From a virus, in the IMG/VR virus record IMGVR_UViG_3300033150_001469, positions 1 through 38,499 of that record: a DNA stretch of 38,499 nt. One strand, 5' to 3'. This document shows positions 3,114-20,794 of the stretch, piece by piece. Within the stretch, counting starts at the first letter, position 1; every line of letters begins with the position of its first letter. The notes under the pieces are model-generated. The model made no database searches and was not told the DNA's origin. It saw only the letters and a program-made list of their open reading frames with translations. A program made the translations under genes and the position numbers.

Positions 3114-3128
3114 CATAAGCCTCCGAGG

Positions 3129-6678: not shown

Positions 6679-7563
6679 CTATACCTCCGGCAGGTTTTCG
6701 ATGTCCGTCTTGGCCAGCCGGGCCAGGACGTTCCGCCGAAACTCGGCGTCGAACTTCGGGTTGGGTTGACCGTCCGGGAGCATTGGTCGGTATCGTTCAT
6801 CCGACATCAGGCTCAGCAGCTCCGTACGGCTGGCGACAGCGGTCAGGGGGGAGGGTGCCCCGGCGCCGCTCAGCAGCGGTGACGCGTTGCCGGCTCCGAC
6901 GGCGGCGTTGTAGCGGCTGAGCAGCCAGTCCATCGCATAGCCGACGGTGTCGATCTTGGAGGCGTCCTCATTGAACTTTGCAATCTCTGCCTCGCTGAGG
7001 TTGGCCTTGCCCCACTCCAAGAGCTGGGCAAGCTGCTCTTCCCCGCCAGCTTTGTTGATTGCCGTCGATCGCAGTTTCTCCTGGAGCGTCTCGTATTCCA
7101 CCTGCTCCAGCCGAAGCACTCGGTCCACGACGCCGCGGGGGACGTTCAGCTTCTCGCGAATCGCCCGGTAGTCTTCGGCTGCCAGCTCTCCCTTCTCTAG
7201 GAAGGTCTGAGTGAGCTTTTCCGGGTCCAGGCCGATGTGCCGCAACATCGAAGGCACGTCGGCGTCATCGGGCAAGCCGTCCTCCTGGGACGACTCGATG
7301 GCAACGGCGGCCTTGGACTTGGGCTGTCCGAGCTTCTTCTCCAGCTCCAGGTAGCTCTTTAACAGCTCGTCTTGACGAACCTGGCCCTTTTCCGCATCCC
7401 AGAACTTCTCCGGCACCTCCGGTGGTCGCTCCTTTGGCGGAAGCTCTAGGCGGCCTTCATCCGGCGGTTTGATTTTGCCGTCGGCAATATCGCGAAGCTG
7501 CTGGCGATGTTCTTCGCTTCCCTCGACGATTTCGTCCTGCTGCTCGTTGGTTTCTTCAGCCAT
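6679..7563 (-). CDS. Capsid assembly scaffolding protein (T7 gp9-like)
   Basis: 294 residues, acidic and helical, similar in size to T7 gp9 (307 aa). The VPEKFWDAEKGQVRQDELLK motif near residues 50-70 is typical of T7-like and many other podovirus scaffolds. The C-terminus carries a short segment after a Pro-rich linker that would contact the capsid protein. It lies directly after the portal and before the capsid. GAGGAG is placed eight bases before the ATG. It should be absent from mature virions. Confidence 0.88.
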   Translation of the reverse strand: MAEETNEQQDEIVEGSEEHRQQLRDIADGKIKPPDEGRLELPPKERPPEVPEKFWDAEKGQVRQDELLKSYLELEKKLGQPKSKAAVAIESSQEDGLPDDADVPSMLRHIGLDPEKLTQTFLEKGELAAEDYRAIREKLNVPRGVVDRVLRLEQVEYETLQEKLRSTAINKAGGEEQLAQLLEWGKANLSEAEIAKFNEDASKIDTVGYAMDWLLSRYNAAVGAGNASPLLSGAGAPSPLTAVASRTELLSLMSDERYRPMLPDGQPNPKFDAEFRRNVLARLAKTDIENLPEV

Positions 7564-7587: not shown

Positions 7588-9159
7588 CTACCCGACGGGT
7601 TCGAGTTGCTTGCGAACGACATCTCCGGCCGTTGCGATAGCCTCCTGGGCGGCCGCCTGCCCGATCTGCCGGCGGACGACGGCCGCTTCGGCCTCTTGTA
7701 TCTCCTGATCGCTACGCAGCAAACCGTCCCGGGTTTCGACACCGAGGTTCCGAAAGACTCGCTCGGCCAGGATCCGGGGATTGATGTACTGGGCCGCCTG
7801 CGGGTGCTGCATGACCATACTGTAGGCGACCCAAAGGCGTTCGAGTTCCATATTTCGGGCGATGGCCTGCTCCCCGGTGGTGACGTGAACGTCCATCAGG
7901 TGCTTGAGGTTTTCCGGGATAGGCTGGAGCAGCCGGTCACGCTGCATTTGGTAGACGAACCGTTCCAGCAGCGGCCGCTGGATCTCGTCGGCAATGTGGC
8001 TGTAGACACCGCCGAGAGCCCCTTCGAGCTCCCTAGCGATCCGCAAGACCTGCGTTGCGGTTACCCGCTCGCCTTTCGGCTGCGAGGACGTCTCCAGCAA
8101 CATCGCCCGGCCGAGCCGCTGGCCGATGGCGGCGGTCCCATCGAGAACGAAGCGAAAATCCTGGCTCTTCTGGCTGGTCAGGCAGGCCACGCCGTCCACG
8201 TTGCCGGCGGTCACGCGCCCGGTAATGACCGAAAGGTTCGGCTTGGCCAGGTCCGCCGGCCGGTAGCCCTTGGTGGGATCGGTGACCCACAACATCTGCG
8301 CCAGCGATGCCCCGCCCTCCAACAGGGCCTTCCAGAGCCCGTTGTAGGATCGCAAATCTCCAATGTTTTCTTCAACGAAGCTGCGCGAGTAGTGCTGCCC
8401 GGGCATCTCTTGATAGCCGGCGGAGAAATACGGGCAGACGGGCTCCTCGCTGGTGGCGATCAAGACGTCGTTGAGCTCCTGCTGGATCAGCCACCGGCGG
8501 CTTTCTGGCTGCCAGGCACACCGGGTGTACAGCAGGATAGGGGCCTGCGTGCTGGTGGCGGCTAGGATCTGCTCGGGCGTTACGTCGGCGGCCCGGTAGT
8601 GCTCCTCTTGCAGGGAATCCAGATCCGGCACCTCGGCAACGATGATCTCCCGGGCACGGCCGGAGCCGTCACGCCTCTGGACCCACTGATCGAATCTGTA
8701 GGCGACCATGCTATAGTCGTCATTCAGCCGCGTCAGCGAGTTTCCCGCGACCAGGAGGTTCTCGATCGCGGTGCGCTGAGCGATGCGGTAGTTGGTGGTG
8801 TCGAGCTTTTGACTCACGCGGCGCTCGCGTTCGGACAGAAAGGCCCACCACTGGGCGAAGAGTTCGTCGCTGATCTCCGCATCGTAGACGGCGGCCGGCG
8901 ACGGCGTGAACCGAAACCACGCAATCCCCGGCGGGAAGAGCGTCATTGTCAGCTTCGACGCAAGGTTGCTGACGCCGCGCGCTCCGAGGCTCTGGTACGG
9001 TCGCAGCAGCTCGCGCTGCTGTTCGCTCTGGCCCTCGCCGAACGGGAACTCCTCCTCCGGCAGGATCGAGGGAATCGTATAGGCTGCGGCTTCGCGAACC
9101 CGCTGGAGGATCGGGTAGCGTTGCGTATGTAACCGCTCGAACTGCTTCTTGATGGTCAT
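7588..9159 (-). CDS. Portal (head-tail connector) protein, T7 gp8-like
   Basis: 523 residues, near the 536 of T7 gp8. The N-terminal RYPILQRVREAAAYTIP and the following YQSLGARGVSNLASKLTMTL are the signature of podovirus connectors; the C-terminal half is Gln/Ala-rich and helical. Twelve copies form the DNA channel and terminase docking ring at one capsid vertex. The ATG overlaps the stop of the preceding small gene (ATGA at 9156-9159), so translation is coupled. Order and spacing with the scaffold and capsid match phiKMV/T7-type phages. Confidence 0.95.
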   Translation of the reverse strand: MTIKKQFERLHTQRYPILQRVREAAAYTIPSILPEEEFPFGEGQSEQQRELLRPYQSLGARGVSNLASKLTMTLFPPGIAWFRFTPSPAAVYDAEISDELFAQWWAFLSERERRVSQKLDTTNYRIAQRTAIENLLVAGNSLTRLNDDYSMVAYRFDQWVQRRDGSGRAREIIVAEVPDLDSLQEEHYRAADVTPEQILAATSTQAPILLYTRCAWQPESRRWLIQQELNDVLIATSEEPVCPYFSAGYQEMPGQHYSRSFVEENIGDLRSYNGLWKALLEGGASLAQMLWVTDPTKGYRPADLAKPNLSVITGRVTAGNVDGVACLTSQKSQDFRFVLDGTAAIGQRLGRAMLLETSSQPKGERVTATQVLRIARELEGALGGVYSHIADEIQRPLLERFVYQMQRDRLLQPIPENLKHLMDVHVTTGEQAIARNMELERLWVAYSMVMQHPQAAQYINPRILAERVFRNLGVETRDGLLRSDQEIQEAEAAVVRRQIGQAAAQEAIATAGDVVRKQLEPVG

Positions 9160-10065: not shown

Positions 10066-11907
10066 TCATGAAAAGCAGTACCGGCTTTCCAGCGATTGTC
10101 TTACGTCAAAGTTGCCCCGGCAAGGAAGACGCGGCAGCTTGACGCCCGGGTAGCTCCTCTGGAGCTGGTCCTTCAACTCGCCGATAAGGCCCCTGGGATG
10201 CTTACTTTGGGTGTGCAGCCGGACAAACTCCTCCCTGAGGATGTTTAGCATAGCTTCGGCGTCCGCTGCGTGTGTCCAGAAGGAGTCGTGGACGCTCGCC
10301 AGCGTGATTCCCGCTTTGCGGCAGCGATTTGCGACGAACGTAAGGTGCGCCGCATCGAGGCTGTGGATGTAATTCGGGGCGAAGCCGTTGATCTGCCGGC
10401 GATGCGCGGGCGGGCCTGCATCTCGCTTCTGGAGGTAGTAGATCCTCTGGAGGATGGTGCGAACGTAGCCGGTCCGGCACCGACGATAATTTTGCACTAC
10501 GGGCAACCCCGTAGGCGCCACCCAACCTATCAGGTGGCCGGCCCGAACGATCCGCCTAGCCGACTCGGCCATCCAATCCATCAGCGCCGCCGCTGCGCGG
10601 CACGTCGTTGCCACCGTCTCCATCGTGACCCGGGCGAGGTAGCGGGCCGCCTCGTAGACGTCGTCCTCTTCGAGTCCGATGCCGCCAAGCTGGTCTTGAA
10701 TCTGGCGCCGAGCGCCGATCGGAGTGACCCCGTAAACGGTCGTCATCACGGTTCGTTTGACGAGCTTGCGGTCGATGTGGCCTTCGAGTTGTCGGGCGAG
10801 GCGATCGCCTTTCGCGGCATCCGCGCACACTCGCCTGCCGACTTTCCGGGCGACTTCCGAGTATAGGTCGGCGGGATACTCGGCCGGGATCAGGTTCACA
10901 TGGCGGGCCGTTTCTGGACATCGCAACAGAGCCGCATAGTGTTGCAGTCCGTTGTTCGAGGCGTCCAACTGGACCGGAATGTGGCAGGGGCCGCCCTGAC
11001 GCCAGGCATTTACGGCCGCCAAGACTTGAAACGGGTGGTCTTGGAGCAGCCAGCCCGTGTTCTCCAGCGGATCGGCGACCCATGCGGCCAGCGTAGCTTC
11101 GTTGTCGCGAACCCACTGGATCCTATCTTCCGCCGGGAGCCTGTCGAGGCCGCAGCAGTTGGCGATGTGAAGCAGCAGCCACCGAAGTCCGTCTCGCCCC
11201 AGTGGCCGGCCCTCGGCGAACTCCAGGAGTCCCCGCGATAGGTCGTCTTGCTGATGGTTCAGATAGGGTGGAACGGCATAGTATCGGCCGCGGAAGTCGA
11301 GTTGGTGCGGAAAATAGAAGGCCTTGTAGTCCTTGAAGTGCCGAGCCACTTCAAGCCGTAGGAGCCAAAGGACGCGATCGGCTCGAAGGCGTGCGTTGGC
11401 CTGGTGGACCTTGCTGGCAGCCGCTTTCCAAGCCTTCTTGCTGGCCTCGTTCGTCTCGAAGTCCGCCGGCAGAACGGGCTTCGGCAGATCGTGACGACGC
11501 GGGATGCCGCCTACGTCTCCGCCGCTATGTGTTTCCGTCGACTTTGTGATCAGGGTCAGCGGCAAGCTGATGTAGCCGCCGGGATCTTGTTTGCTCCACC
11601 GCATCGGGGGAACGACCATCGGCAGATGCCGGGGCAGGAGCCGACCACATAGATCTTCGCCATCGGCGATGACCTGTTGGGCCGCCTCCGTGAGGCGAAG
11701 GTACCGGACGCGCTTGCCTTTTTGCGTGATCAGGGGCGTGGAAAAGGCGGGGGTCAGCCCCTCAGGGTCTGTTTTCGCCACGGCCAACAGGTTCGAGAGT
11801 AGGTAGCTCCCGAGATGGAAATGAGTTCGGCGGCCCCAGGCGCTCTCGATCATCCGTCGCCGCGCCACCCGCAGGATGTTCGTCGGTCTGAGTTGCCGCT
11901 TGTCCAT
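10066..11907 (-). CDS. Single-subunit phage RNA polymerase, catalytic part
   Basis: 613 residues from ATG 11907. It aligns by eye to T7 RNA polymerase from roughly its residue 165 to the C-terminus. Catalytic residues are present: Asp in DASNNGLQH (~315, T7 D537), Lys and Tyr in KRTVMTTVYG (~384, ~392; T7 K631, Y639) and Asp in HDSFW (~541, T7 D812). The NF-x-VRQSLES-x-YCFS end matches the T7 'LRDILESDFAFA' foot. The enzyme would transcribe the structural genes from phage promoters. The N-terminal domain is encoded in a different frame just upstream (11762-12226), so a full enzyme needs a frameshift, two associating chains, or a corrected sequence. Its position just before the structural genes is phiKMV-like. 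Confidence 0.93.
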   Translation of the reverse strand: MDKRQLRPTNILRVARRRMIESAWGRRTHFHLGSYLLSNLLAVAKTDPEGLTPAFSTPLITQKGKRVRYLRLTEAAQQVIADGEDLCGRLLPRHLPMVVPPMRWSKQDPGGYISLPLTLITKSTETHSGGDVGGIPRRHDLPKPVLPADFETNEASKKAWKAAASKVHQANARLRADRVLWLLRLEVARHFKDYKAFYFPHQLDFRGRYYAVPPYLNHQQDDLSRGLLEFAEGRPLGRDGLRWLLLHIANCCGLDRLPAEDRIQWVRDNEATLAAWVADPLENTGWLLQDHPFQVLAAVNAWRQGGPCHIPVQLDASNNGLQHYAALLRCPETARHVNLIPAEYPADLYSEVARKVGRRVCADAAKGDRLARQLEGHIDRKLVKRTVMTTVYGVTPIGARRQIQDQLGGIGLEEDDVYEAARYLARVTMETVATTCRAAAALMDWMAESARRIVRAGHLIGWVAPTGLPVVQNYRRCRTGYVRTILQRIYYLQKRDAGPPAHRRQINGFAPNYIHSLDAAHLTFVANRCRKAGITLASVHDSFWTHAADAEAMLNILREEFVRLHTQSKHPRGLIGELKDQLQRSYPGVKLPRLPCRGNFDVRQSLESRYCFS

Positions 11908-12226
11908 CTGGACTCTCTGAGAGCGCCGTGTGCATGGTGATCACCGCCAGCTTGTCGGCCGGCAGCGAACACAACGGCGGCCCGTAGACCCGACGGCCGA
12001 CCCCCGGCAGGCCGCGAAGGACGTCCCGTTGAGCTTCCCTGATTCGCCGCGAAAGGTCTCTGAACCATGCCACCAACAGCCGCTGTGCGGGCTTGATTGC
12101 GGCTCCGGCGCCCCGCCGACGGGCCTTCTCGGCCAGGAGGCGATAGCGGCGGACCCCTTCCTCGACAGCCTCTCGCTCCAGCGCGAGTTGCGCGGCAACC
12201 AGCGTGTCGTCAAACAGGTTCTTCAC
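11762..12226 (-). CDS. RNA polymerase N-terminal domain in a separate frame
   Basis: 154 codons from a GTG at 12226 that overlaps the stop of the lipoprotein gene (GTGA). Residues ~8-100 match T7 RNA polymerase residues ~35-130: QLALEREAVEEGVRRYR corresponds to T7 QLALEHESYEMGEARFR, and KLAVITMHTAL to VAYITIKTTL. Beyond about residue 104 the reading frame encodes unrelated Pro/Ser-rich sequence, while the neighbouring frame opens (from 11940) and picks up the polymerase at 11907. A shift of +1 near 11900-11940 would join them. Compared with T7, about 60-70 residues between the two parts are also missing, so the joined enzyme would be about 715 aa against 883. Confidence 0.85.
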   Translation of the reverse strand: MKNLFDDTLVAAQLALEREAVEEGVRRYRLLAEKARRRGAGAAIKPAQRLLVAWFRDLSRRIREAQRDVLRGLPGVGRRVYGPPLCSLPADKLAVITMHTALSESPDGQAATQTDEHPAGGAATDDRERLGPPNSFPSRELPTLEPVGRGENRP

Positions 12227-12492
12227 GGGCCGGCTTGCTGGTCATCCGCTTCCGTGGCGGAAACCTCGTCGGGGAGGCACCACCAGCCTTCTGGTAGGGT
12301 GACGCGATTCACCGACCGCTCTCGCCGGCCTTCAACGTCGACGTAGACGTGAGCGCGAACGGGCTCGGCCAGCTGAACCGGCTCACCGGGGGGAATTAGC
12401 ACCGTGCGCGTGCGCACGCACCCGCCGAGTGAGACGATCGCGGCGACGGCGATTACGATCGGCATCCACTGCCGTATTCGGGGAGCGAACAT
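12223..12492 (-). CDS. Small lipoprotein, outer-membrane spanin (Rz1)-like
   Basis: 89 residues with a signal segment (WMPIVIAVAAIVSLGGC) ending in a lipobox, SLGG|C, so the mature protein would start at Cys25 or so. The mature part is short, Pro/Val-rich and without helices (RTVLIPPGEPVQLAEPV), like small phage lipoproteins found next to holins. In a lysis cluster this suits an Rz1-type outer-membrane spanin subunit, although a matching Rz is not obvious. A lipoprotein of this type implies a Gram-negative host. The ATG lies inside the preceding small ORF in another frame. Confidence 0.65.
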   Translation of the reverse strand: MFAPRIRQWMPIVIAVAAIVSLGGCVRTRTVLIPPGEPVQLAEPVRAHVYVDVEGRRERSVNRVTLPEGWWCLPDEVSATEADDQQAGP

Positions 12493-12568
12493 ACTGGAGC
12501 ACCAGGTCTAGAAGTACCTTCACGACGACCTCTAGGATCGGCCGGAAGGCATCAACTAGTCCCGCCAT
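12383..12568 (-). CDS. Small amphipathic protein in the lysis cluster
   Basis: 61 residues. The N-terminus is an amphipathic/hydrophobic helix (MAGLVDAFRPILEVVVKVLL); the rest is charged (PNTAVDADRNRRRRDRLTRR). I recall short phage proteins with a similar 'PNTAxDAD...DRLxxRVR' tail beside holins, which argues that it is real. It overlaps the holin end by 17 bases and the lipoprotein start by about 110 bases in another frame, a nested arrangement like Rz/Rz1. It could be a reduced inner-membrane spanin partner (inference). Confidence 0.5.
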   Translation of the reverse strand: MAGLVDAFRPILEVVVKVLLDLVLQYVRSPNTAVDADRNRRRRDRLTRRVRAHAHGANSPR

Positions 12569-12773
12569 CGCCCTTGACCTTGGCTCGGCTGGCGCTGTAG
12601 CCCAGTGCCGCCAGGACGGTCACGATGCCGCCGACCAGTTTGTTGATCCAGCTTTCGGCTGGCACAGCGTCCAGCAGGCCCGAGGCCATAAGGAAGCCCA
12701 GCAGCGTCGCAGCGAGCGAGAGCCAGAACTCCGTGGTCTTGTAGCCCGGCTTAGGTTGGTCCGTGCTTGCCAT
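12552..12773 (-). CDS. Holin-like membrane protein
   Basis: 73 residues starting MASTDQPKPGYKTTEFW, with GGAGG five bases before the ATG; an upstream in-frame extension to 12830 is unlikely. There are two membrane segments (LSLAATLLGFLMASGLL and KLVGGIVTVLAALGYSASRA) separated by a short acidic/tryptophan loop, and a short charged C-terminus. This 'KPGYKTTEFW...LAALGYxxSRA' build is common in phage proteins annotated as holins. It would permeabilise the inner membrane at the end of infection. It heads the lysis cluster, followed by the small protein and the lipoprotein. Confidence 0.75.
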   Translation of the reverse strand: MASTDQPKPGYKTTEFWLSLAATLLGFLMASGLLDAVPAESWINKLVGGIVTVLAALGYSASRAKVKGDGGTS

Positions 12774-12804
12774 TTGAGCCTCCGTGCCCGGCACGCGCAT
12801 TATG

Positions 12805-13110
12805 CTAGCCAATCGTCGGTCTGCTATCAAGCTTTTTTTTGAGGTTTTCCTCGGTTAGTTCCTCGCTCTTGTCAATACTCACGGCCCATCGCGGATCATC
12901 CAACACTTCAGGGGGACAGCCAAGCCGTTCCCAGATCATAAGTTCCTCGAAGATGCGCTCCCGTTCCACTGCCGGGAGGCGGGCGAAGAGAAAGAAGGCG
13001 CCCCGAAGGACGGCGGCTTGGTTTCGGCCGGTGCGTCGGCACCACACACGGAACGCGTCCGCGAAGTCTCCGCCGGGCCTAAGGTTCAGTTGGGCTCTTT
13101 CGTCTGACAT
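12805..13110 (-). CDS. Small ribbon-helix-helix-like DNA-binding protein
   Basis: 101 residues. The first 45 (AQLNLRPGGDFADAFRVWCR then TGRNQAAVLRGAFF) fit a ribbon-helix-helix pattern: one short beta strand, a helix, a turn with Gly, and a second helix. The C-terminal half is acidic and helical. AAAGGAG lies about ten bases before the ATG. It is the first gene behind the minus-strand promoter at 13222-13251, which overlaps the opposing plus-strand promoter. It is thus well placed to act as an autoregulator or switch between the two transcription units (inference). Confidence 0.6.
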   Translation of the reverse strand: MSDERAQLNLRPGGDFADAFRVWCRRTGRNQAAVLRGAFFLFARLPAVERERIFEELMIWERLGCPPEVLDDPRWAVSIDKSEELTEENLKKKLDSRPTIG

Positions 13111-13216
13111 TTGTGCGTTTCTCCTTTCTTTTGCGCGGTCGATGATAATTGTACCACGTCAAGCCAAGATTCCTCCATGCGATACGAAATTGGAAGAAAA
13201 TTTTTTGGATAGCCAC

Positions 13217-13246
13217 TTGACATTATAGTCGAACAAGCGCAACAAT
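13217..13246 (+). promoter_or_regulatory. Sigma70-type promoter for the replication operon
   Basis: TTGACA at 13217-13222, an 18-base spacer and AACAAT at 13241-13246 (4 of 6 bases of the -10 consensus). It sits in an AT-rich pocket of a GC-rich genome and reads toward the gene at 13521 through a leader of about 270 bases. It overlaps the opposing promoter at 13222-13251. Confidence 0.6.
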
Positions 13247-13251
13247 GACAA
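13222..13251 (-). promoter_or_regulatory. Sigma70-type promoter for the regulator, lysis and polymerase unit
   Basis: On the minus strand, TTGTCA (13251-13246), an 18-base spacer and a perfect TATAAT (13227-13222). The -10 of this promoter abuts the -35 of the plus-strand promoter, so polymerase can probably occupy only one at a time. It drives the regulator at 12805-13110 and likely the RNA polymerase genes. Confidence 0.65.
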
Positions 13252-13419
13252 AAGACACTTCAACCTAGTTGCAAGCGGATGGTCATGGAAAGGTTGGTGG
13301 GACGAACACGGAAGTCGCGACCGCTTGATGAGGTCCCCTGCCACTCTGACGAGCCGTTCCTGGCCCGAGCGGCATCCCGTCTACTCCCCCGCTGTTCCCT
13401 AGCGTTGCGGTCGCGCCCA

Positions 13420-13458
13420 GGGGCGTGCCGGGCTTTCCTCCTTTCACCGGCACGCCCC
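13420..13458 (+). promoter_or_regulatory. Long leader hairpin with an anti-Shine-Dalgarno-like loop
   Basis: GGGGCGTGCCGG (13420-13431) and CCGGCACGCCCC (13447-13458) form a perfect 12-bp stem with a 15-base loop. The loop contains CCTCCTTTC, the same sequence as the 16S rRNA 3' end, and is complementary to the GGGGAGG ribosome binding site of the gene at 13521. There is no T run after it, so it is not a simple terminator. The whole stretch 13111-13520 otherwise holds promoters and leader, with no convincing gene. Confidence 0.5.
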
Positions 13459-13520
13459 GCCCATGTATTTAGCATTCCAGCCCCGCAGCCGGTTCCGTCA
13501 TCATCCGCGGGGAGGCTTCT

Positions 13521-14582
13521 ATGTCCAATCAGCTAAAACCCGCAGTAGCCCCCGCTTACCTCCGAATGGGCTTATTCGGCCGAACAGGCGCAGGCAAGTC
13601 CTACACGGCCGCAAAGGTCATGTCCCAATTCGTCCGCGATTACCTGCCCGAGAGTCAGGTTGCCATGTTCGATACCGAGGGCGGAGCCGGCTACTTGCGC
13701 GAGATGGTCAGGCAAATCTCGGGTAAGGAACTTCTGGTGATGACCGGCCAGACGTTCTCGGAGCTTATGGATTTCGCTGACGAGGTCGTGAAAAACGGCT
13801 ACGTTGCGATTGTCGATTCGGTGACTCACCCCTGGCAGGCGCTCTGCGAGGATTACCTCACGGCAAAACGCAGTCGCGTTCAGGCTGCCGGCGGACGCAC
13901 GGACACGGTGCGGCTGACGTTGCAGGATTGGGGACCCATCAAGGAGGTCTGGGGCCGATTTTCCAGTCGCGTCCGCTATGACCCTGTGCACTGGTGCTTG
14001 TGCGGGCGGGAGTCGGATGTCTGGGAGGATCTGGAAGATGAGGAAGGACAGCTGAGGGCTACGATTACCGGCCAGCGAATGAAGACGGAGCGCGACATGG
14101 GCTACGAGCCGTCCATCCTAGTTCGGCTGGTCCTGCGACACGGCAGGCACGTCGCCATCGTCGAAAAGGAACGGTTCGACGTGATGTGCGGCGCGACCTG
14201 CGAAGATCCGGACATTGAGTTCTTCCGTCCTCACATAGATCTCCTAAACCTCGGCGGCGAGGTTGCCAAGCCCCAGCCTGCCGAGCCGGCGTTCCGCCAG
14301 GAAAAGGGACCAAATTGGGAGACGATCAAGGCCCGGCGTGCCGGGATCCTGGAAAACATCAAGGACGACCTAGTTGTAGCGATTCCCGGGCAAAGCGCTG
14401 CCGAAAAGCGAAAGAAGATCGAGCTGCTGCGATCTGCGTTCGGCACGTCCAGCTGGACGGAGTTGGAGAGCGATCATAAGAAGTTCCCCGCTAGCAAGCT
14501 GCGCGCCGGACGCAAGCGGCTGGCGGCCCTGCTTGCAGAGGCTAGGTCCAGTAAGGAGCAAAGTGATGCCGCGAACCATTGA
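13521..14582 (+). CDS. Phage RecA-like AAA ATPase (Sak4/AAA_24-type)
   Basis: 353 residues. Walker A is GRTGAGKSYTA (~residues 17-27), Walker B YVAIVDSVTH (~93-102); a DTEGG motif near residue 50 is typical of phage AAA_24 nucleotide-binding proteins related to the Sak4 RecA-like annealing ATPases. The C-terminal ~90 residues are basic and helical. GGGGAGG lies five bases before the ATG. It is the first gene of the plus operon and is followed by an SSB-like gene that overlaps its end by 17 bases. The pairing of Sak4-like ATPase with SSB is known in phage recombination systems. The likely role is ssDNA binding, annealing or recombination-dependent replication. Confidence 0.75.
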   Translation: MSNQLKPAVAPAYLRMGLFGRTGAGKSYTAAKVMSQFVRDYLPESQVAMFDTEGGAGYLREMVRQISGKELLVMTGQTFSELMDFADEVVKNGYVAIVDSVTHPWQALCEDYLTAKRSRVQAAGGRTDTVRLTLQDWGPIKEVWGRFSSRVRYDPVHWCLCGRESDVWEDLEDEEGQLRATITGQRMKTERDMGYEPSILVRLVLRHGRHVAIVEKERFDVMCGATCEDPDIEFFRPHIDLLNLGGEVAKPQPAEPAFRQEKGPNWETIKARRAGILENIKDDLVVAIPGQSAAEKRKKIELLRSAFGTSSWTELESDHKKFPASKLRAGRKRLAALLAEARSSKEQSDAANH

Positions 14583-15120
14583 CGACATCCCAGACCCCGC
14601 AGCTGATCGGTGGCCGCCGGCTGGCTGGCACGATTGCGTCCTTGTCGAGGTGCACTACTGGCGCAGCCCCAGGAAGGGCACTCCCGGCGTTCGGCTCACC
14701 TTCCAGAGCGAGGACGGGAACTATCGCTTCTCCGATGCGATATGGATGACGCCCAAGGCGATTAACCGCTGGAAGATGCTGGCCCTCCACATCTGTCAGT
14801 TCCCTCGGGCTCTTCAGTTGCCCGACGAAGACGCGCACGCGGTCCGGCAGTTAGCCGACTATGTCGTCAGGAACGGCCCCGGCTGTCGAGGGCGGGTTCT
14901 GATCGAGGAGGAGGCGTATGAGTACTTCGACCAGGAAACGGGCCGGCGGCGTCGAGGAACACGACATCGAGTGGCGTTCGCCGGCTTCGCGGCCCCGGAG
15001 TCACCAGCGGAGGACCGGCCCGAACCCGCTGCCGATTTGGAGCCTGCGGACGCCGAAACCTTGCCCGGCAACGCGCCGGCGGCACCCGGGCCGCTGCCGC
15101 CGGACGACATCCCGTTCTAG
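14566..15120 (+). CDS. Single-stranded DNA-binding-like protein with acidic DIPF tail
   Basis: 184 residues from ATG 14566, AAGGAG eight bases upstream. Residues ~15-130 form a beta-rich domain (CVLVEVHYWRSPRKGTPGVR, YRFSDAIWMTP) resembling phage ssDNA-binding proteins of the DUF669 kind. After a Pro/Glu/Ala-rich linker it ends PPDDIPF. This acidic, Phe-terminated tip is the hallmark by which bacterial and phage SSBs recruit replisome partners. The gene overlaps the AAA ATPase gene and precedes the other recombination genes. It would protect ssDNA and load the host or phage partners. Confidence 0.7.
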   Translation: MPRTIDDIPDPAADRWPPAGWHDCVLVEVHYWRSPRKGTPGVRLTFQSEDGNYRFSDAIWMTPKAINRWKMLALHICQFPRALQLPDEDAHAVRQLADYVVRNGPGCRGRVLIEEEAYEYFDQETGRRRRGTRHRVAFAGFAAPESPAEDRPEPAADLEPADAETLPGNAPAAPGPLPPDDIPF

Positions 15121-15147
15121 GGGTCGCCGGCCAGAAAGGACAAACCG

Positions 15148-15417
15148 ATGGCACATAACGTTCTGGAAGCAGTCAGAGTGCCGCAGGTGAAGTTTCCGGC
15201 GGAATCGGCTCAAGAGGTGGCCATTCGCGATCGGGTTTCGGAGATGCCCAAAAGTTGCGTCAAGACTTATCTGGCGGCCATGAAAGGACGCTCGGCTCGA
15301 TCGGCCATCCGGGCCTTCTGCCATATGTGTATGGGCTGGGCCGACTACCGGGCCGGCATCCGCCGGTGCAGCGACCCGGCCTGTCCGCTCTATCCGTACA
15401 GGCCGTATCGGGACTGA
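15148..15417 (+). CDS. Small Cys-rich protein, probable zinc-binding
   Basis: 89 residues. The C-terminal half holds four cysteines in two groups, FCHMCMGW and RRCSDPACPLYPYRPYR, spaced as for a zinc site. The 'C-x2-C ... RxC-x4-CPLYPYRP' pattern is common in phage proteins of unknown function that lie in replication clusters. AAAGGA precedes the ATG by eight bases. It may be a DNA- or protein-binding zinc adaptor. No enzymatic motif is visible. Confidence 0.7.
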   Translation: MAHNVLEAVRVPQVKFPAESAQEVAIRDRVSEMPKSCVKTYLAAMKGRSARSAIRAFCHMCMGWADYRAGIRRCSDPACPLYPYRPYRD

Positions 15418-15428
15418 AAGGCACGGCC

Positions 15429-15983
15429 ATGTCACGATTCAGCGACTACTTGAAGTCACTCGGTGCCTGCCGAGGTGCTGTCGCCTGGTCAGCCCAATTT
15501 CGCGGCGCTCAAGCCGCCTGGGAGGCCTGCGATCGCGGCGACTGGATGCTGTGGCTCCTAGCGAGGCGAATGGGCGATATCCGAGGCGAAAAACACCGGC
15601 GGCTCGTCAAGCTGGCCTGCGCATGCGTCAGGTTGGCCCTGAACCGCGAGGCCGATGGCCAGGGCGGGATCGGCATGATATTGCAGGCCGTCGAAGGCTG
15701 GGCGGATGGCCGACTAGACGGAACGGACCTTGTCGTCTGCCGAACGCTGCCCTCCGCACTCCACACGCTCACCTGGACCCCCTTCATCCCCGACCCCGCT
15801 GACCAGGCTGCCTGCGTTGCCGACGTTGCCAGCAGCGCCGCGCATGCCAGGGCCTACGCCGCCTGCGGCGCCAGAGCGACCAACCGCGTGGCCTTCGTCC
15901 ACGAGCAGGCCCGCACGTTGCGCCGCATGGCCGACCTGATCCGCCAACAGGTCCCCGACATTCGCCGGTGGAGGGCGCGATGA
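15429..15983 (+). CDS. Unknown conserved-type phage protein (GDWMLW motif)
   Basis: 184 residues from ATG 15429 with AAAGG eight bases upstream. The N-terminus (GACRGAVAWSAQF then AWEACDRGDWMLWLLARRM) matches a motif often seen in phage and prophage proteins of unknown function. The rest is Ala/Arg-rich and helical (ACACVRLALN, AACGARATNRVAF). No membrane span or catalytic motif is seen. Its stop overlaps the start of the HTH gene (ATGA), so the two are co-translated. Confidence 0.7.
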   Translation: MSRFSDYLKSLGACRGAVAWSAQFRGAQAAWEACDRGDWMLWLLARRMGDIRGEKHRRLVKLACACVRLALNREADGQGGIGMILQAVEGWADGRLDGTDLVVCRTLPSALHTLTWTPFIPDPADQAACVADVASSAAHARAYAACGARATNRVAFVHEQARTLRRMADLIRQQVPDIRRWRAR

Positions 15984-16261
15984 CGCGAGGTGGAATCATG
16001 CACGGAAGATTAGTCCCTATGACGCAGAAAACTGAATCATGGGCACCACGGATGCCTGACGGCCGCCCGGCGCCATACCTGATGACCAAGGCGGAGGTCG
16101 CCGAGTTTCTCCGGCTCGACGGGAGCCAGCTCGGAGTCAAGTTATGGCGGCTCCGCCGGAACCGAGGCTTGCGAGGCCTGAAGGTGGGTCGGTGTGTTCT
16201 TTACCCGCTCAATGAGGTGTTGCGCTTCGTCCATAACGAGGTGGAGCGGAGGCCGCAATGA
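15980..16261 (+). CDS. Small helix-turn-helix DNA-binding protein
   Basis: About 93 residues from ATG 15980 (ATGA overlap with the preceding stop); internal ATGs are possible starts. Residues ~38-85 (YLMTKAEVAEFLRLDGSQ, then WRLRRNRGLRGLKVGRCVLY) fit the MerR/excisionase-like winged helix HTH_17 pattern: 'lt..eva..l', a turn, and a basic beta strand. It may be an excisionase or a small regulator. Its position in the replication operon and not next to int makes a recombination-directionality role possible but unproven. It overlaps the resolvase start by four bases. Confidence 0.65.
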   Translation: MTRGGIMHGRLVPMTQKTESWAPRMPDGRPAPYLMTKAEVAEFLRLDGSQLGVKLWRLRRNRGLRGLKVGRCVLYPLNEVLRFVHNEVERRPQ

Positions 16262-16758
16262 GCCGGATACTCGCCATCGACCCAGGACCGGCACACAGCG
16301 CATATGTGCTGCTTGAGGGGCGAGAGGTCCTCGATCGGGCCATCGAACCCAATCTGAATGTGCTGCCGGCGATCAAGCGGAACAAGCACGACTGTTTGGC
16401 GGTCGAATGGCTTACGGGCTACGGCATGGCTGTCGGGGCATCCGTCTTTGAAACGTGCTTCTGGTGCGGCCGCTTCATCGAGGCGGCTCGCTCTCCGTAC
16501 CTGCTGATTCCCAGGCATGTCGTCAAGCGAAAATTGTGCGGAACCCCGAAGGCCCGAGATAGCAACGTACGGGCTGCGATCATAGGCCTCTACGGCGGCG
16601 ACCGGCCAACCGCAATAGGGACCAAGAAGAAACCCGGACCGCTCTACGGGATCAAGCGCGACATGTGGGCCGCTCTGGCAGTTGCAATCGTGGCCGCTTG
16701 CCAGCTGGATTCCGCGACGAACGTGGCGAGCTGTCCGGAACCGACGAAAGGAGCATGA
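16258..16758 (+). CDS. RuvC-like Holliday-junction resolvase
   Basis: 166 residues. An RNase H-fold start, ILAIDPGPAHSAYVLL, gives the first acidic residue (D8). A second acid is E50 in CLAVEW, and the C-terminal acid is D135 in KRDMWAALAVA, matching the RuvC motif order. It would resolve branched DNA before packaging, the role T7 gives to endonuclease gp3. It starts with an ATGA overlap with the HTH gene and ends with an ATGA overlap into the small membrane protein. Confidence 0.8.
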   Translation: MSRILAIDPGPAHSAYVLLEGREVLDRAIEPNLNVLPAIKRNKHDCLAVEWLTGYGMAVGASVFETCFWCGRFIEAARSPYLLIPRHVVKRKLCGTPKARDSNVRAAIIGLYGGDRPTAIGTKKKPGPLYGIKRDMWAALAVAIVAACQLDSATNVASCPEPTKGA

Positions 16759-16919
16759 GATCCGTGGAGAATGACGGGCTGATTCGTGGAGGCCAGGGGC
16801 GGGTTGCCGGCGAACTGGTCGAGATGACGAAAAGGCTGGGTTGGGTCGTTGTTTGGAGCCTCGTTGTCCTCGTCTGCGGATTGATTGCGGGGCTCTGGAA
16901 ACCCCTTGTTGGCGGATAA
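16755..16919 (+). CDS. Small single-span membrane protein
   Basis: 54 residues from ATG 16755, which overlaps the resolvase stop; AAAGGAG lies just upstream. After a polar N-terminus (MRSVENDGLIRGGQGRVAGE) there is one strong membrane segment (GWVVVWSLVVLVCGLIAGLW) and a very short end. It could be a superinfection-exclusion or antiholin-type factor, but only position and topology are known. Confidence 0.55.
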   Translation: MRSVENDGLIRGGQGRVAGELVEMTKRLGWVVVWSLVVLVCGLIAGLWKPLVGG

Positions 16920-17066
16920 GGGAACGAGACGGCAGGGCCGGGGCAGGTCAGGCGAAGGATCGCCGTGCGGACGGATGGGATCAAGCCCGCCCCGGCCCGC
17001 CAACCCGTCGTCGCGCAGGCAGCGCCCGGGCGACGGGACGGTATGGCAGGCTGATAGGACATTGGC

Positions 17067-17963
17067 GTGGCAGGCAAGATCCTCAAGCTGAATGCGGCGG
17101 TCGCTAGGCGGACAGATTTAACCCCGAGCGACAAGCTCGTCTTGGCCGTTCTCAGCGCCTACGCTGGCGCCAATCGGGCGACATGGCCGGGAGTTCGAGT
17201 CCTGGCGAGGGAGTCGGGTTTGCACCGGGTAACGGTCCTGAGAGCCATCAGGAGATTGGAAACACGCGGGTTAATGGTGAGCGGCTACAGAAAGAGCCCT
17301 GCGAACAGATCCAGTGTCGCAAAATGCGACCGGTCGCAAAATGCGACCGTTCGCAAAATGCGACCGACTCTGGTTGCAAAATGCGACCAGCCTTGGTCGC
17401 AAAATGCGACCCCCCTTGGCTGCAAAATGCGACCGGTCGCAAAATGCGACCAGTCGCAAAATGCGACGATCTCCGGTCGCATAACCGACGGCGGTTCGGA
17501 CGGTAATGGCGATTCTTACGCGCGCGCGCACGCGCGCGACAGTACTAACAGTAGTAATATAGTTACTAATAGATCCCTTAGTAATAGTAATCCCCTAAAG
17601 GGGGGGGATAAAAGGGGGGGGAAAGAGCGCCGGCACGAGCCGTTTGCCGATGCCTTCCGCGAAGCTTTCGAGTCGCACTTCGGTACGACCTACTCCTGGG
17701 CCAAGTCAGATTTCGTGCAGCTTGCTGCGTGGCGGAAGAACTGGCCGGCCGTCTCTCCCGGGGAGTTTGCCGAGACGGCGAAACGCCTCTGGAGTCTAGG
17801 ACAATTCGCCCCCGCCGCCAGCCTGACCATACGGGGGATGTGCGCCCGGTGGCCTCAGTTGCAAGCCACACTTCGACTGCGCGGAGGCGGAAGTCGTTAT
17901 GACATCCATCCTGACGGCTACGACGAAGGGATCTGTGTCAATGACCGAAATGACCGTCCATGA
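17067..17963 (+). CDS. Replication initiator, lambda O-like, with origin inside the gene
   Basis: 298 residues from GTG 17067. The N-terminal ~75 residues form a winged-helix domain (TPSDKLVLAVLSAYAGANRA, ARESGLHRVTVLRAIRRLE) as in phage replication initiators. Residues ~84-134 are translated iterons (repeating AKCD, QNAT and KMRP), followed by a Ser/Asn-rich low-complexity linker from the AT-rich segment. The C-terminal domain (~195-285) would contact the helicase loader. The layout of N-terminal DNA-binding domain, origin inside the gene and a DnaC-like gene immediately downstream (overlapping by 65 bases) is that of lambda O/P. It should bind the iterons and bring in the host helicase. Confidence 0.82.
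   Translation: MAGKILKLNAAVARRTDLTPSDKLVLAVLSAYAGANRATWPGVRVLARESGLHRVTVLRAIRRLETRGLMVSGYRKSPANRSSVAKCDRSQNATVRKMRPTLVAKCDQPWSQNATPLGCKMRPVAKCDQSQNATISGRITDGGSDGNGDSYARAHARDSTNSSNIVTNRSLSNSNPLKGGDKRGGKERRHEPFADAFREAFESHFGTTYSWAKSDFVQLAAWRKNWPAVSPGEFAETAKRLWSLGQFAPAASLTIRGMCARWPQLQATLRLRGGGSRYDIHPDGYDEGICVNDRNDRP
17317..17467 (+). repeat. Eight origin iterons with symmetric 17/23-bp spacing
   Basis: Eight copies of TCGCAAAATGCGAC start at 17317, 17334, 17351, 17374, 17397, 17420, 17437 and 17454; the copies at 17374 and 17420 differ at the first two bases only. Each is an inverted repeat (GTCGCA-AAA-TGCGAC), suiting a dimeric initiator. Start-to-start spacing is 17, 17, 23, 23, 23, 17, 17. 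All spacings are 2 modulo 3, so successive copies cycle through the three frames and leave the gene open. A degenerate half site follows at 17477. This is the probable replication origin. Confidence 0.88.
17518..17594 (+). other. Putative DNA-unwinding region beside the iterons
   Basis: A 21-base alternating purine-pyrimidine CG run (17518-17538, prone to left-handed DNA) is followed by an AT-rich block (17541-17594) unique in this GC-rich genome. The block repeats TAGTAA/TTACTA units, including TAGTAATAGTAA at 17579-17590, which resembles DnaA-trio elements. The position next to the iterons matches the AT-rich unwinding region of lambdoid origins. Confidence 0.6.
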
Positions 17964-18549
17964 GCACATCGAGAGACACCGTGTCGCTAGCCTACCACCG
18001 AGGTACAGGTGCCGGAAGCTCTCGGATTTCAGCCAGGCGATTCAGACACGGATGCTGGGCTTTTTGGATGACTCTAGTTGGTGCTGCTACATCTACGGCG
18101 CGGTTGGCACCTGCAAGAGCTCGCTGGCGGTTGCAACGCTTCAAACCTGGCGGGATCGCCAGGTCGGACTGCGCCGCGCCCAGGGCCACTTCGTGCCGAT
18201 CTATAGCCTGGCCGAGGTTCTCCGTAACCTAGCCGTCAGCGCTTCAACTCTAGACGCCTGGAAGCAAAGCCCTTTCCTGATCTTGGATGACCTCGGGGCC
18301 AGCCGCTCCACGCCACACATAGTCGAACGGACGTGCTTCCTGTTGGAGTACCGTTACGACCACTCGGACGGCAACGCCAAGACGATCGTCACGAGCAATC
18401 TTGACCTGAAGCACCTGGCGGAAGCCTTGGATCCCCGCCTTGCCTCCCGGCTACAAGAAGGATTGATCCTGAACATGGGCCGGCATGACATGCGGCGGGC
18501 AGGGACTCGGAGACTGGTCGATGCTGAGAGTGTGGCAACCGATTCGTGA
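17899..18549 (+). CDS. DnaC-like helicase loader (lambda P functional analogue)
   Basis: 216 residues from ATG 17899 (202 if ATG 17941 is used). An AAA+ core is visible: Walker A GAVGTCKS (~67-74, with Cys before Lys), Walker B FLILDDLG (~126-133), sensor-1 TIVTSN and an arginine-finger-like LDPRLASRLQEG. This order is diagnostic for DnaC/IstB-type loaders. It would deliver the host DnaB-type helicase to the initiator at the iterons. It overlaps the initiator gene's end, and the downstream small gene overlaps its own end. No phage helicase, primase or DNA polymerase is encoded, so it probably hands over to host replication proteins. Confidence 0.88.
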   Translation: MTSILTATTKGSVSMTEMTVHEHIERHRVASLPPRYRCRKLSDFSQAIQTRMLGFLDDSSWCCYIYGAVGTCKSSLAVATLQTWRDRQVGLRRAQGHFVPIYSLAEVLRNLAVSASTLDAWKQSPFLILDDLGASRSTPHIVERTCFLLEYRYDHSDGNAKTIVTSNLDLKHLAEALDPRLASRLQEGLILNMGRHDMRRAGTRRLVDAESVATDS

Positions 18550-18808
18550 AGCTCCCCCGTTAAGGGGACTGCGACCCTTGAGCAAGCAGGTTCGGCCGTG
18601 GTGGGCGGCTGGCCTAAAACGGCTGGAGGCTACGGTATATGCTTGCGGACCGGGGCGCTACCTGCACGTGACGGGGTACCGGCGGAGGGATGATTGGCTC
18701 CGGGCAGGTACCGACGCACTGGACGGCTACGAGCGGGTTGATCGCTGGTACATGCTGCTTCGACGGGAAAAGGACGGAACTCGACGGTGCCCCGGCGAAC
18801 CTACCTGA
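18521..18808 (+). CDS. Small unknown protein, replication operon
   Basis: 95 residues from ATG 18521, CGGAG eight bases upstream. Basic, with several Trp and Tyr residues in a beta-like layout (ATVYACGPGRYLHVTGYRRR, DRWYMLLRREKDG). No recognised family. It overlaps the helicase loader end by 29 bases, and its stop overlaps the ATG of the next small gene (TGATG). Confidence 0.6.
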   Translation: MLRVWQPIREAPPLRGLRPLSKQVRPWWAAGLKRLEATVYACGPGRYLHVTGYRRRDDWLRAGTDALDGYERVDRWYMLLRREKDGTRRCPGEPT

Positions 18809-19002
18809 TGTATGTGGTGTGCCACAGGACGAGCAGGGGCCTCAATCCGTGGAGGGGCTACGTCGGTCGGGTGACGCTGTTCTCGGAGGAGTCCGAAGCC
18901 CGGTGGTTTGCCAAAACCATCATGGACCACGATCCCACGGTTCGCGGGCTTTGCGTTAGGGAAGCCGCGTTAACCGTGGACCTCAGCGAGGAAGACGGCT
19001 GA
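18808..19002 (+). CDS. Small unknown protein at the end of the replication operon
   Basis: 64 residues from ATG 18808, which overlaps the preceding stop; a GTG at 18787 would add seven residues. A compact alpha/beta sequence (GYVGRVTLFSEESEARWFAK) with an acidic end. No domain is recognised. It is the last gene before the attP region, and no clear terminator lies behind it. Confidence 0.6.
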   Translation: MYVVCHRTSRGLNPWRGYVGRVTLFSEESEARWFAKTIMDHDPTVRGLCVREAALTVDLSEEDG

Positions 19003-19020: not shown

Positions 19021-19268
19021 TTGTACCCAAATTGTACCCAAACGGGCGCAACGCGAGCGCAATTCCACGTCAAGGCACACGCAATGTGCGTTGCATATTC
19101 TTGCAGCGGCGTACGTTAGATACTGGCACGCAAGGGCTTACAGCGCCCTTCCTTAGCTTGGGAAGCTGGCATTCTGCCACTGAATTACGCCCGCATGTCG
19201 TTAAACCGTAAAGGATTGCGTGGCTCGGAGATTCTCGGCAACAAAATTGTACCCATTTTGTACCCAAA
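19021..19268. other. Phage attachment site attP with phased arm repeats
   Basis: Two pairs of TTGTACCCAAA-type direct repeats flank a core. The left pair starts at 19021 and 19032, the right pair at 19247 (TTGTACCCA, then T) and 19258. Within each pair the spacing is 11 bases, one DNA turn, and all four point the same way, as expected for integrase arm-type sites. The core lies at the anticodon stem-loop of a tRNA-Gly fragment, with inverted core half-sites AGCTT-GGG-AAGCT at 19155-19167. The int gene ends 15 bases to the right. An AAGGGC/GCCCTT inverted repeat at 19132-19150 adjoins the core. Confidence 0.85.
19155..19194 (-). tRNA. 5' half of a tRNA-Gly(CCC), attachment core, not a complete tRNA
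   Basis: On the minus strand, 40 bases reproduce the 5' part of a tRNA-Gly: acceptor strand GCGGGCG, TA, a D arm ATTC...GAAT, then the anticodon stem and loop CCAGC-TTCCCAA-GCT (anticodon CCC). Identity stops three bases into the 3' strand of the anticodon stem. No T arm or 3' acceptor strand follows. This is the part shared with a host tRNA gene at which integration would occur, with crossover in the anticodon loop. It is unusual that the phage carries the 5' half and not the 3' half. Confidence 0.85.
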
Positions 19269-19282
19269 CTGGTTGTCAAGCG

Positions 19283-20377
19283 CTACGATGGCTTGGCGAC
19301 AAGAGCCGGCTGTGCAGCCCGCTCGAAGTCGCTGTCCTTGACCCGGTGGTAGTAGGTCGCGGCGACCTCGGGGCTGTGTCCAAGCCACTGGCAGACTGTA
19401 TACGGGTCGAATCGCTGCATCCAGTCCATTTCCGCGTTTTTTCGCAACGTGTGGCACCAGCGTTTCCACGCCGGAACGCCTGCCCGCTGGCAGAGTGACC
19501 GGAAACCCTTCCAGAGGTGATTCTGCTTGGGAAGACTTTCTGGCGGGATGACCCGCGGACCGGACAACTCGCTGGAGGCGCGCGCGTAGGCATCAACCAA
19601 CAGCCGGTAAAGGTCCGGGTCGATCGGAACCTCGCGGCAGGCATCCTTCGTAGTGCGGTAGCGGCGCTTGCTGACGACCCATAGGCGCCGCGTCTCGAAG
19701 TCGACGTGCTCCCATCGCAGCCGAAGGGCCTCGCCTTGCCGTAGGCCAGCTAGCCGGCAAAGGGCCAACAACAGCTGCCAGCCGATGGACGGGCTGGCGT
19801 CCACAAGCCGCCAAAGCAGCTCGCGGCTGACGTAGAACCAGCGCTTTTCCGGGCGGGGCGGCGTGCCTCGGAGTCCGACAAATGGGTTCCGCAAGAGCAG
19901 GCCCTCGCGGGTGGCGGCCTGAAAGATCGCCTTGGCCTCCCTGACGCTACGGCAGACTGTCGGTTCGCTGGGAACGCCCCGCATCCGGCGGTTTGCGCCG
20001 GCTAGCTCGCCCCGCTCGAGCGCCGCTCGCCAGTCGGCCGCATCGGCAGGCGTGATCTGGTCCATGCGTATCGCGTCACCGAAGTAGGCCAGCAGGTAGC
20101 GGATCGTCTGCCGGTACAGTTCCACAGTACCCGGCGCGAGGCGCGGGCGGTTCCGCAAGTAGCGTTCGGCGTAATCTCGCAGGGCGGGGGCGTCCCCGGG
20201 CTCCGTCCGGCCGCTGTTCAGCTCAAGCTGGAGCAGGTCGACTCGGTGTTGGGCGGCCCGGCGGGTAATCTTGGCGCGTGACCCGAGGCCCTTGGCGTGC
20301 TGCCGGCCCAGATGGTCACGCCATCGGGCTTGCCAATATCGGCCGTTGCAGACCAAGTGAACGTGTATCAGATTCAT
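19283..20377 (-). CDS. int: Tyrosine-family integrase
   Basis: 364 residues. N-terminal ~60 residues are an arm-binding-type domain (CNGRYWQARWRDHLGRQHAKG), ~65-165 a core-binding SAM-like domain, and ~180-355 the catalytic domain. Catalytic residues are visible: R213 in LAGLRQGEALRL, Lys near 237-244, H309 and R312 in HTLRKN, H334 in LGHSPE and nucleophile Y343 in TYYHRV. Its ATG overlaps the stop of the XRE gene (ATGA). attP lies just downstream on the same strand, as in many temperate phages. It would catalyse integration into a host tRNA-Gly gene, probably with host DNA-bending proteins. Confidence 0.95.
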   Translation of the reverse strand: MNLIHVHLVCNGRYWQARWRDHLGRQHAKGLGSRAKITRRAAQHRVDLLQLELNSGRTEPGDAPALRDYAERYLRNRPRLAPGTVELYRQTIRYLLAYFGDAIRMDQITPADAADWRAALERGELAGANRRMRGVPSEPTVCRSVREAKAIFQAATREGLLLRNPFVGLRGTPPRPEKRWFYVSRELLWRLVDASPSIGWQLLLALCRLAGLRQGEALRLRWEHVDFETRRLWVVSKRRYRTTKDACREVPIDPDLYRLLVDAYARASSELSGPRVIPPESLPKQNHLWKGFRSLCQRAGVPAWKRWCHTLRKNAEMDWMQRFDPYTVCQWLGHSPEVAATYYHRVKDSDFERAAQPALVAKPS

Positions 20378-20631
20378 GGTTCTGCTCCCTCAGCTTGCTC
20401 TTCCGGCGCCCGGCAGCCGCGTCCGCTAAGCAGGCTGCTTGAGGACAGGCCGAGCGCGGCGGCCATTCGGTCCAATGTGGTCCAGGACGGGTTTAGCTGA
20501 CCGCGTTCGACGTGGCTCCAGTGGGCCTGGGTGATCCCGGCCCGGGCTGCAGCTTGCGATTGGGTCAAGCCCAACCGCTTCCGGCGAGCCCGGAGCCGTG
20601 CCGGCACCGGAATCTTCACGCTCTTGTTCAT
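20374..20631 (-). CDS. XRE-family helix-turn-helix regulator
   Basis: 85 residues from ATG 20631 (AGGAGG six bases upstream). A Cro/CI-type HTH spans residues ~8-65: RLRARRKRLGLTQSQAAARA, then GITQAHWSHVERGQLNPSW. The C-terminal ~20 residues are acidic and unstructured; there is no LexA-like protease or dimerisation domain, so it is closer to Cro or a small repressor than to lambda CI. It is co-translated with int, suggesting control of lysogeny or of the minus-strand accessory operon. The 5' part is overlapped by a zinc-finger ORF in another frame. Confidence 0.82.
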   Translation of the reverse strand: MNKSVKIPVPARLRARRKRLGLTQSQAAARAGITQAHWSHVERGQLNPSWTTLDRMAAALGLSSSSLLSGRGCRAPEEQAEGAEP

Positions 20632-20794
20632 TGATGACCTCCTCAAGTAGGCTCTCAAGCCAGCGAATCTTGCACGCCTTACAGCAGAACGTTCGTAGCT
20701 CGCCTGCTGCTTCTAGGACGGCCCAGCCCTCGGGCAGCGAGCCTTTGGCCGGAATCCGCCAAGTTCCACATTCATCGCACTCGTACTTGATCAT
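20426..20794 (-). CDS. Small zinc-finger-like protein whose frame runs through the XRE gene
   Basis: 122 codons from ATG 20794 (GGAG nine bases upstream). The first ~55 residues look like a genuine domain, with two Cys pairs (YECDECGTW and FCCKACKIRW) and an acidic helix (WLESLLEEVINEQERE). From about residue 55 the frame coincides with the XRE gene in another phase and reads as low-quality Pro/Arg/Gly-rich sequence. Either the protein really has this tail, or the domain ends by frameshift or the tail is tolerated. The role is unknown; a small zinc adaptor or regulator is possible. Confidence 0.55.
   Translation of the reverse strand: MIKYECDECGTWRIPAKGSLPEGWAVLEAAGELRTFCCKACKIRWLESLLEEVINEQEREDSGAGTAPGSPEAVGLDPIASCSPGRDHPGPLEPRRTRSAKPVLDHIGPNGRRARPVLKQPA

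Follow-up and report, generated by a model that had tools for sequence, protein, structure and literature searches.

The stretch of DNA analysed here (the window) is the entire IMG/VR virus record IMGVR_UViG_3300033150_001469 of 38,499 bases, with a G+C content of 63%. It very probably represents the nearly complete genome of a temperate podovirus which has a T7-type virion and RNA polymerase (RNAP) and replicates in the manner of phage lambda. Gene identities were assigned by PHROG and Pfam profile searches of the window proteins (Table 1), with open reading frames (ORFs) in high-GC contigs being chosen by a codon-usage caller. A reading made earlier from the sequence alone (the sequence-only reading) had described gp8- to gp19-type genes and a T7-type RNAP, and the profile searches confirm both. 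The T7-type virion set of gp8, gp9, gp10, gp11, gp12, gp14 and gp19 is present on the minus strand, and the RNAP gene is immediately upstream of that for the portal.

The replication genes lie opposite to the rest in a plus-strand operon between approximately 13.5 and 19.0 kb, which encodes Sak4-like, RuvC-like, O-like and DnaC-like proteins. The O-like protein possesses an HTH_36 domain (residues 17–69), and its gene contains eight iterons starting at positions 17316, 17333, 17350, 17373, 17396, 17419, 17436 and 17453, the spacing between starts being 17, 17, 23, 23, 23, 17 and 17 bases. Iteron matches on both strands numbered 11 against 0.44 expected, a number reached in 0 of 100 shuffles. 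Beside this predicted origin is a putative unwinding element, in which the 60-mer of lowest G+C in the whole window (0.30) starts at 17541. An initiator with a DNA-binding N-terminal domain, iterons within the initiator gene, an AT-rich element and a helicase loader that is not accompanied by a replicative helicase or polymerase match are all features of lambda-type replication, and with the iteron array and AT-rich element the case for lambda-like replication logic is stronger than the sequence-only reading had claimed. A single-sequence structural model of the O-like protein is folded at residues ~10–70 (winged-helix) and ~190–272 (helical) and disordered at 71–187, this linker including the part encoded by the iterons. 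A fold search with the model returned mostly winged-helix regulators, none of them significant.

It has been proposed that in staphylococcal phages lacking a helicase of their own a DnaC-type loader brings in that of the host, and Sak4 together with its single-stranded DNA-binding protein (SSB) is required for replication (PMC5499656). The Sak4-like, RuvC-like, O-like and DnaC-like assignments of the sequence-only reading are all upheld by the profile searches. That of the SSB is not, and support for the candidate comes only from its C-terminal DDIPF and its position beside Sak4.

No family A DNA polymerase (PF00476) was found in the window, nor was there a match to family C (PF07733) or family B (PF00136), with controls positive for all three. 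The PF00476 controls were LUZ100, jiawei, BB8, S2B, YIMV22061 and YA1 as well as 10 control bacteria. The type 2 family B profile (PF03175) was also searched, but its controls gave no signal and the result was not counted. T7-type primase-helicase and gp6 exonuclease were likewise not found in the window, in agreement with the sequence-only reading. The window searches gave no primase or polymerase PHROG match, and there was no helicase match among the replication operon proteins. PF00476 was also not found in any of the 17 virus records searched from the clade to which the window belongs, nor in two further members (G003, G006). Family A polymerase is therefore absent across the sampled clade, but one member, a Planctomycetota prophage (L113), has an NrS-1-type primase-polymerase.

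This last gene shows that the lineage is not uniformly polymerase-free, and a number of the window proteins match no family. Both points would favour a DNA polymerase or primase-polymerase whose divergence puts it beyond the reach of the profiles, in which case the phage would not depend on a host polymerase. We regard this as improbable, as the replication operon proteins without assignment are all short (<250 amino acids), the profiles of families A, B and C and the primase and polymerase PHROGs gave no match, and an initiator with iterons together with a helicase loader would be superfluous if the phage had its own polymerase.

The sequence-only reading considered the window to be a full genome if its ends join. 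No overlap was found between the contig ends, the butted ends are out of frame and no end repeat is present, but both ends fall within one gene, that of gp12. This is apparent from an undescribed relative, G012 (IMGVR_UViG_3300005512_000106, 38,908 bp), in which gp12 is intact and lies between gp11 and gp14. Residues 1–422 of its gp12 match the left-end ORF of the window and residues 427–656 the right-end ORF. The two contigs are broken at different places and each spans the gap of the other. The break in the window sits in an inserted domain of gp12 (1–1803, 35939–38497), which is ~300 residues long relative to G012. The window is thus a nearly complete genome, its roughly 38.5 kb lacking a short part of gp12, and because both ends lie in this gene a polymerase gene cannot hide between them.

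G012 also bears on the possibility of a chimeric contig made up of a T7-type and a lambda-like phage. The change of operon strand at ~13.2 kb and the different closest relatives of the two halves could be taken as signs of such a join. However, G012 is an independent contig in which these parts are joined with order and orientation unchanged, with integrase (−), terL to portal to RNAP (−) and a divergent replication operon (+), and it has homologs of the small genes at 12223–12492 and 12552–12830, which lie on the RNAP side of the strand change, and of the helix-turn-helix (HTH) gene at 15968–16261. Identities between the two are 44% for RNAP, 45% for the portal, 48% for terL and 44% for the integrase, and G012 also lacks a DNA polymerase. 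The order integrase-replication-RNAP-portal recurs in G003, G006 and G023, where these genes are on one strand. A chimera is accordingly very unlikely, and because the ends share gp12 and G012 has the same gene order, the absence of a polymerase is not due to a missing segment or to misassembly of two phages.

With regard to lysogeny, the sequence-only reading had proposed an integrase with attP and a probably temperate phage. Both hold, and the attP can now be placed precisely at 19153–19194, with a pair of arm repeats on either side. Its core was found at E ≤ 1e-8 in 49 of 294 Planctomycetota genomes (best match 40/40) and in 12 of 299 Pseudomonadota genomes (best match 93%), and a planctomycete is the likely host from this sequence match. 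A temperate life is supported by the integrase, the repressor-like HTH protein and attP, along with the integrated relative L113 (JAJRRC010000076.1; G029:C97:512-40107; L216–L218), a prophage in a Planctomycetota metagenome-assembled genome. L113 occupies 39.5 kb between 49-bp direct repeats (attL and attR) at 512 and 40059, these being the 3′ half of tRNA-Thr, and beyond the right repeat are genes for arginyl-tRNA synthetase (argS), a Ser/Thr kinase, an M48 peptidase and EPSP synthase. The integrated copy with attL and attR is that of this relative and not of the window genome.

Taken together, these findings support the sequence-only reading of a T7-type virion combined with use of the host replisome, and the following course of infection is proposed. 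The genome would circularise, and the plus-strand replication operon would be transcribed from a host-type promoter within the divergent region at ~13.2 kb. The O-like protein would bind the eight iterons in its own gene and open the adjoining AT-rich stretch, the DnaC-like protein would load host DnaB, and the host primase and Pol III holoenzyme would copy the DNA. We infer this use of the host replisome from the strong anatomy of the region. Concatemers would be formed and resolved by Sak4, the SSB and the RuvC-like resolvase and then packaged by the gp19-type terminase, and the minus-strand lysis genes, RNAP and virion genes would form the late unit, in which the RNAP may play its role. Lysogeny would proceed through the integrase and the tRNA-Gly(CCC)-half attP, probably in a planctomycete.

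A number of observations weigh against this account. The contig ends are not closed, and the SSB candidate has no profile match, its single-sequence folding being of low confidence. Single-protein queries with the O-like and DnaC-like proteins turned up no relatives, whether among phage records or in IMG/VR, so that the O gene with its iterons is without a relative there and the cassette has been seen once. The RNAP is encoded in two frames. At the frame junction roughly 110 bases have been deleted, removing the counterpart of G012 residues 107–143, and the main ORF is short of about 35–41 further residues before the catalytic part. Finally, a repeated T7-type promoter was sought in intergenic DNA, and no repeated motif besides the iterons was found.

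The last two points bear on another explanation, namely that the window is a decaying prophage, or belongs to a lineage losing its T7-type RNAP, with host RNAP reading the late genes and only the lambda-like part of the genome being of importance. In intact relatives, among them G012, the RNAP is one ORF of about 790–850 amino acids, in contrast to the split and deleted gene of the window. There are also host-type promoters at the divergent switch, with 7 promoter-like sites in this region against 3.4 expected. On the other hand, the catalytic part of the RNAP is a conserved open frame of 613 codons, obvious frame breaks are absent from the virion, terminase, integrase and replication genes, and a polymerase in two pieces could still be active. 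Decay is in our opinion possible rather than probable. The RNAP of the window genome may be impaired, its activity being uncertain from the sequence, and it represents either a two-piece enzyme, an assembly fault or a lost function.

The preferred reading, that of a T7-type temperate phage with lambda-like replication, was placed in a wider context with about 150 RNAP loci gathered from IMG/VR and genomes. Three architectures cover most of the loci with enough flanking sequence: T7 order, with a polymerase downstream of the RNAP; phiKMV order, with a polymerase upstream; and the window type, with no polymerase and the portal mostly 2–3.5 kb downstream of the RNAP (5.4 kb in L113). In a tree of 70 RNAPs, one branch (SH-aLRT 100) separates 35 window-type rows, which come from the window, IMG/VR and Planctomycetota, from 35 polymerase-bearing rows, the latter representing the T7 side with a bias, as they were partly fetched with clade motifs. 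Of the window-type rows, 14 were checked with at least 5 kb of upstream sequence and 21 with less. The portal tree repeats the split (34 against 18, support 100), and rooting was not inferred for either tree. T7 and Pasto are on the polymerase side of the RNAP tree, as are SP6, phiKMV and HTVC019P in a larger one. The sequence-only reading, which called the phage T7/phiKMV-like, was correct with respect to T7-type gene content and is refined with respect to descent, the window lying outside both groups in the two trees.

These phages apparently form an undescribed deep lineage, found at least partly in Planctomycetota. No description of it was found in the open-access literature and collections, a search whose scope did not extend to closed-access work on temperate T7-like prophages and which turned up temperate T7-like phages that encode a polymerase themselves. 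Megablast of the window core against phage records gave no match, nor did a portal query against bacterial genomes.

Replication cassettes differ between members of the clade. Unlike the window, G012 has an operon with SbcC-like, RecE, RecT and RusA proteins and an initiator-like fragment, and no Sak4, RuvC-like, O or DnaC genes of the window style. An 18-bp tandem array at the G012 end (L191 18410–18731, 17.9 copies) was considered as an origin and rejected, as it encodes a hexapeptide-repeat protein. L113 is like the window in having the RNAP upstream of the portal, T7-type virion genes, an integrase and a RuvC-like resolvase (44% identical), and no family A polymerase was found in this prophage. 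It differs in its SNF2-type helicase and primase-polymerase (PF22763, 6.9e-28) and in its insertion in tRNA-Thr. A superfamily 2 helicase with a Toprim primase is the replication cassette of G003, G006 and other members, and in L043 a DnaC-like loader lies upstream of the clade RNAP, the second such loader found adjoining an RNAP of this clade.

As a side finding, mitochondrial RNA polymerase is matched more closely by the RNAPs of the clade than by that of T7. This likeness to the yeast enzyme was seen for L003, L041–L056 and kin, and for window positions 10066–11907. Yeast Rpo41 scored 430 bits against clade member L003, and ≤300 bits among the best rows from the 50,697 phage records searched, so that it is more similar to the clade than to any of the annotated phage records. 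In the tree, Rpo41 joins the long branch near the clade (clade and Rpo41 against the rest 100/100, clade without Rpo41 92/85). With one organelle sequence and an unrooted tree, the closeness is suggestive only. The mitochondrial enzyme as a proven sister of the clade in a three-group tree was rejected, since this tree is unrooted and only branch lengths and similarity point there. It may tentatively be put forward, as a doubtful proposal, that the polymerase-free clade with its coupled RNAP and portal genes is a deep lineage in its own right and an order-level sister to the Autographivirales, temperate and with exchangeable replication cassettes, that no known phages are closer relatives of mitochondrial RNAP, that the T7/phiKMV replisome was acquired later and that the organelle enzyme came from such a prophage. 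If the side finding holds, the clade supplies candidates in the search for the phages most closely related to mitochondrial RNA polymerase, a question of long standing.

The remaining features are given in Table 1. The gp11-type tail protein (1806–3116) is approximately twice the usual length, and its residues 296–416 give a second match to a part of LUZ100 gp11, which suggests an internal duplication. A 554-residue protein (24478–26142) adjoining the terminase has no family match and no homolog among the fetched loci, and a 121-residue protein (21958–22323) matches the end of phrog_24512 (8e-36), a family without known function.

Table 1. Features of the window, with the match or other basis for each assignment.
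Feature	Position	Strand	Basis
N-terminal piece of gp12-type tail protein, truncated at contig end	1..1803	-	phrog_457 1e-25
Tail tube, gp11-type	1806..3116	-	phrog_446 1.4e-58
Major capsid, gp10-type	5120..6115	-	phrog_267 7.9e-39
Scaffold, gp9-type	6679..7563	-	phrog_1052 8.5e-20
Portal, gp8-type	7588..9159	-	phrog_449 6.9e-109
T7-type RNAP, main ORF, catalytic domain intact	10066..11907	-	phrog_414 2.9e-160, PF00940 2.6e-116
RNAP N-terminal part, different frame	11762..12226	-	phrog_414 2.8e-8; tblastn with G012 RNAP
Small lipoprotein-like gene, spanin-like by sequence	12223..12492	-	conserved upstream of RNAP in G012
Small membrane protein with holin-like sequence	12552..12830	-	conserved upstream of RNAP in G012
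Divergent sigma70-like promoters	+ 13217-13246 (10/12), - 13251-13222 (11/12)	both	consensus match only
Sak4-like RecA-type single-strand annealing ATPase	13521..14582	+	phrog_124 1.7e-9, PF13479 9.5e-7
Putative SSB, C-terminus DDIPF	14533/14566..15120	+	DDIPF tip and place beside Sak4 only
Small HTH protein, replication operon	15968..16261	+	phrog_33884 1.7e-4; 45% to G012; conserved in G012, L050
RuvC-like Holliday junction resolvase	16258..16758	+	phrog_1770 2.3e-12; 44% identical in L113
O-like replication initiator	17067..17963	+	PF13730 HTH_36 8.9e-12; phrog_1032/270/391
Predicted replication origin: 8 iterons GTCGCAAAATGCGAC, 0-2 mismatches	17316..17467	+	in O-like gene, after DNA-binding domain
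AT-rich putative unwinding element	17536..17600		3′ of iterons
DnaC-like helicase loader (AAA+)	17899..18549	+	phrog_50 7.9e-19, phrog_3277 3.8e-8; Walker A/B motifs
attP arm repeats TTGTACCCA	19021, 19032, 19247, 19258 (span 19021..19266)		only four window copies, either strand
attP core, 5′ half of tRNA-Gly(CCC)	19153..19194	-	40/40 identical to Planctomycetota tRNA-Gly(CCC)
Tyrosine integrase	19283..20377	-	phrog_1 4.2e-46, PF00589 2.4e-11
Repressor-like HTH protein	20374..20658	-	phrog_2328 3.9e-12
Terminase large subunit, gp19-type	26146..27852	-	phrog_38 7e-102
gp16-position internal virion protein	28985..33034	-	position and size only; no family match
gp15-position internal virion protein	33007..35373	-	position; weak G012 match
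Internal virion protein, gp14-type	35391..35942	-	phrog_805 4.8e-10
C-terminal piece of gp12-type tail protein, truncated at contig end	35939..38497	-	phrog_457 1.4e-86

Self-sufficient replication is a textbook property of T7-type phages. That a coherent lineage combines their virion and RNAP with a lambda-style origin, or with other replication cassettes, shows that the transcription and virion module is separable from that of replication, and makes it testable whether the replisome of T7 is ancestral or acquired. The lineage also supplies an integrated prophage in Planctomycetota.

Of the features shared by members of the Autographivirales/Autographiviridae (the kin of T7 and phiKMV), the window has the T7-type virion set and the gene for a single-subunit T7-type RNAP, though this is in two frames. 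Its genes are not all on one strand, it has no family A polymerase and primase-helicase of its own, and its RNAP and portal lie opposite the known members across a branch with 100% support.

Temperate T7-like phages which combine an integrase with T7-type genes have been described (PMC10134795), and it might be supposed that the window is an ordinary phage of this Pasto, LUZ100 and HTVC019P kind. Like the window, Pasto, LUZ100, HTVC019P, BB8 and S2B have a T7-type virion, RNAP and a tyrosine integrase. Unlike it, they have a primase-helicase, a family A polymerase and a gp6-type exonuclease, and their RNAP is far from the portal. In the Pasto/LUZ100 group the integrase is near the RNAP, whereas that of the window is ~7 kb away. 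In the RNAP tree, Pasto, LUZ100 and HTVC019P are also parted from the window by the split, as are LUZ100 and Pasto in the portal tree, and membership of this group is scarcely credible.

The phiKMV-type phages are like the window in having the RNAP just upstream of the head genes, but they have a family A polymerase upstream of the RNAP and are found on the other side of both trees. In phage lambda, the iterons of the origin lie inside the initiator gene O after its DNA-binding domain, with an AT-rich element adjoining and a helicase loader gene downstream. The window resembles this O/P system in the layout of iterons, AT-rich element and loader. It differs from lambda in having eight iterons of another sequence with mixed 17/23 spacing, a DnaC-like loader which is not lambda P, and a T7-type virion.

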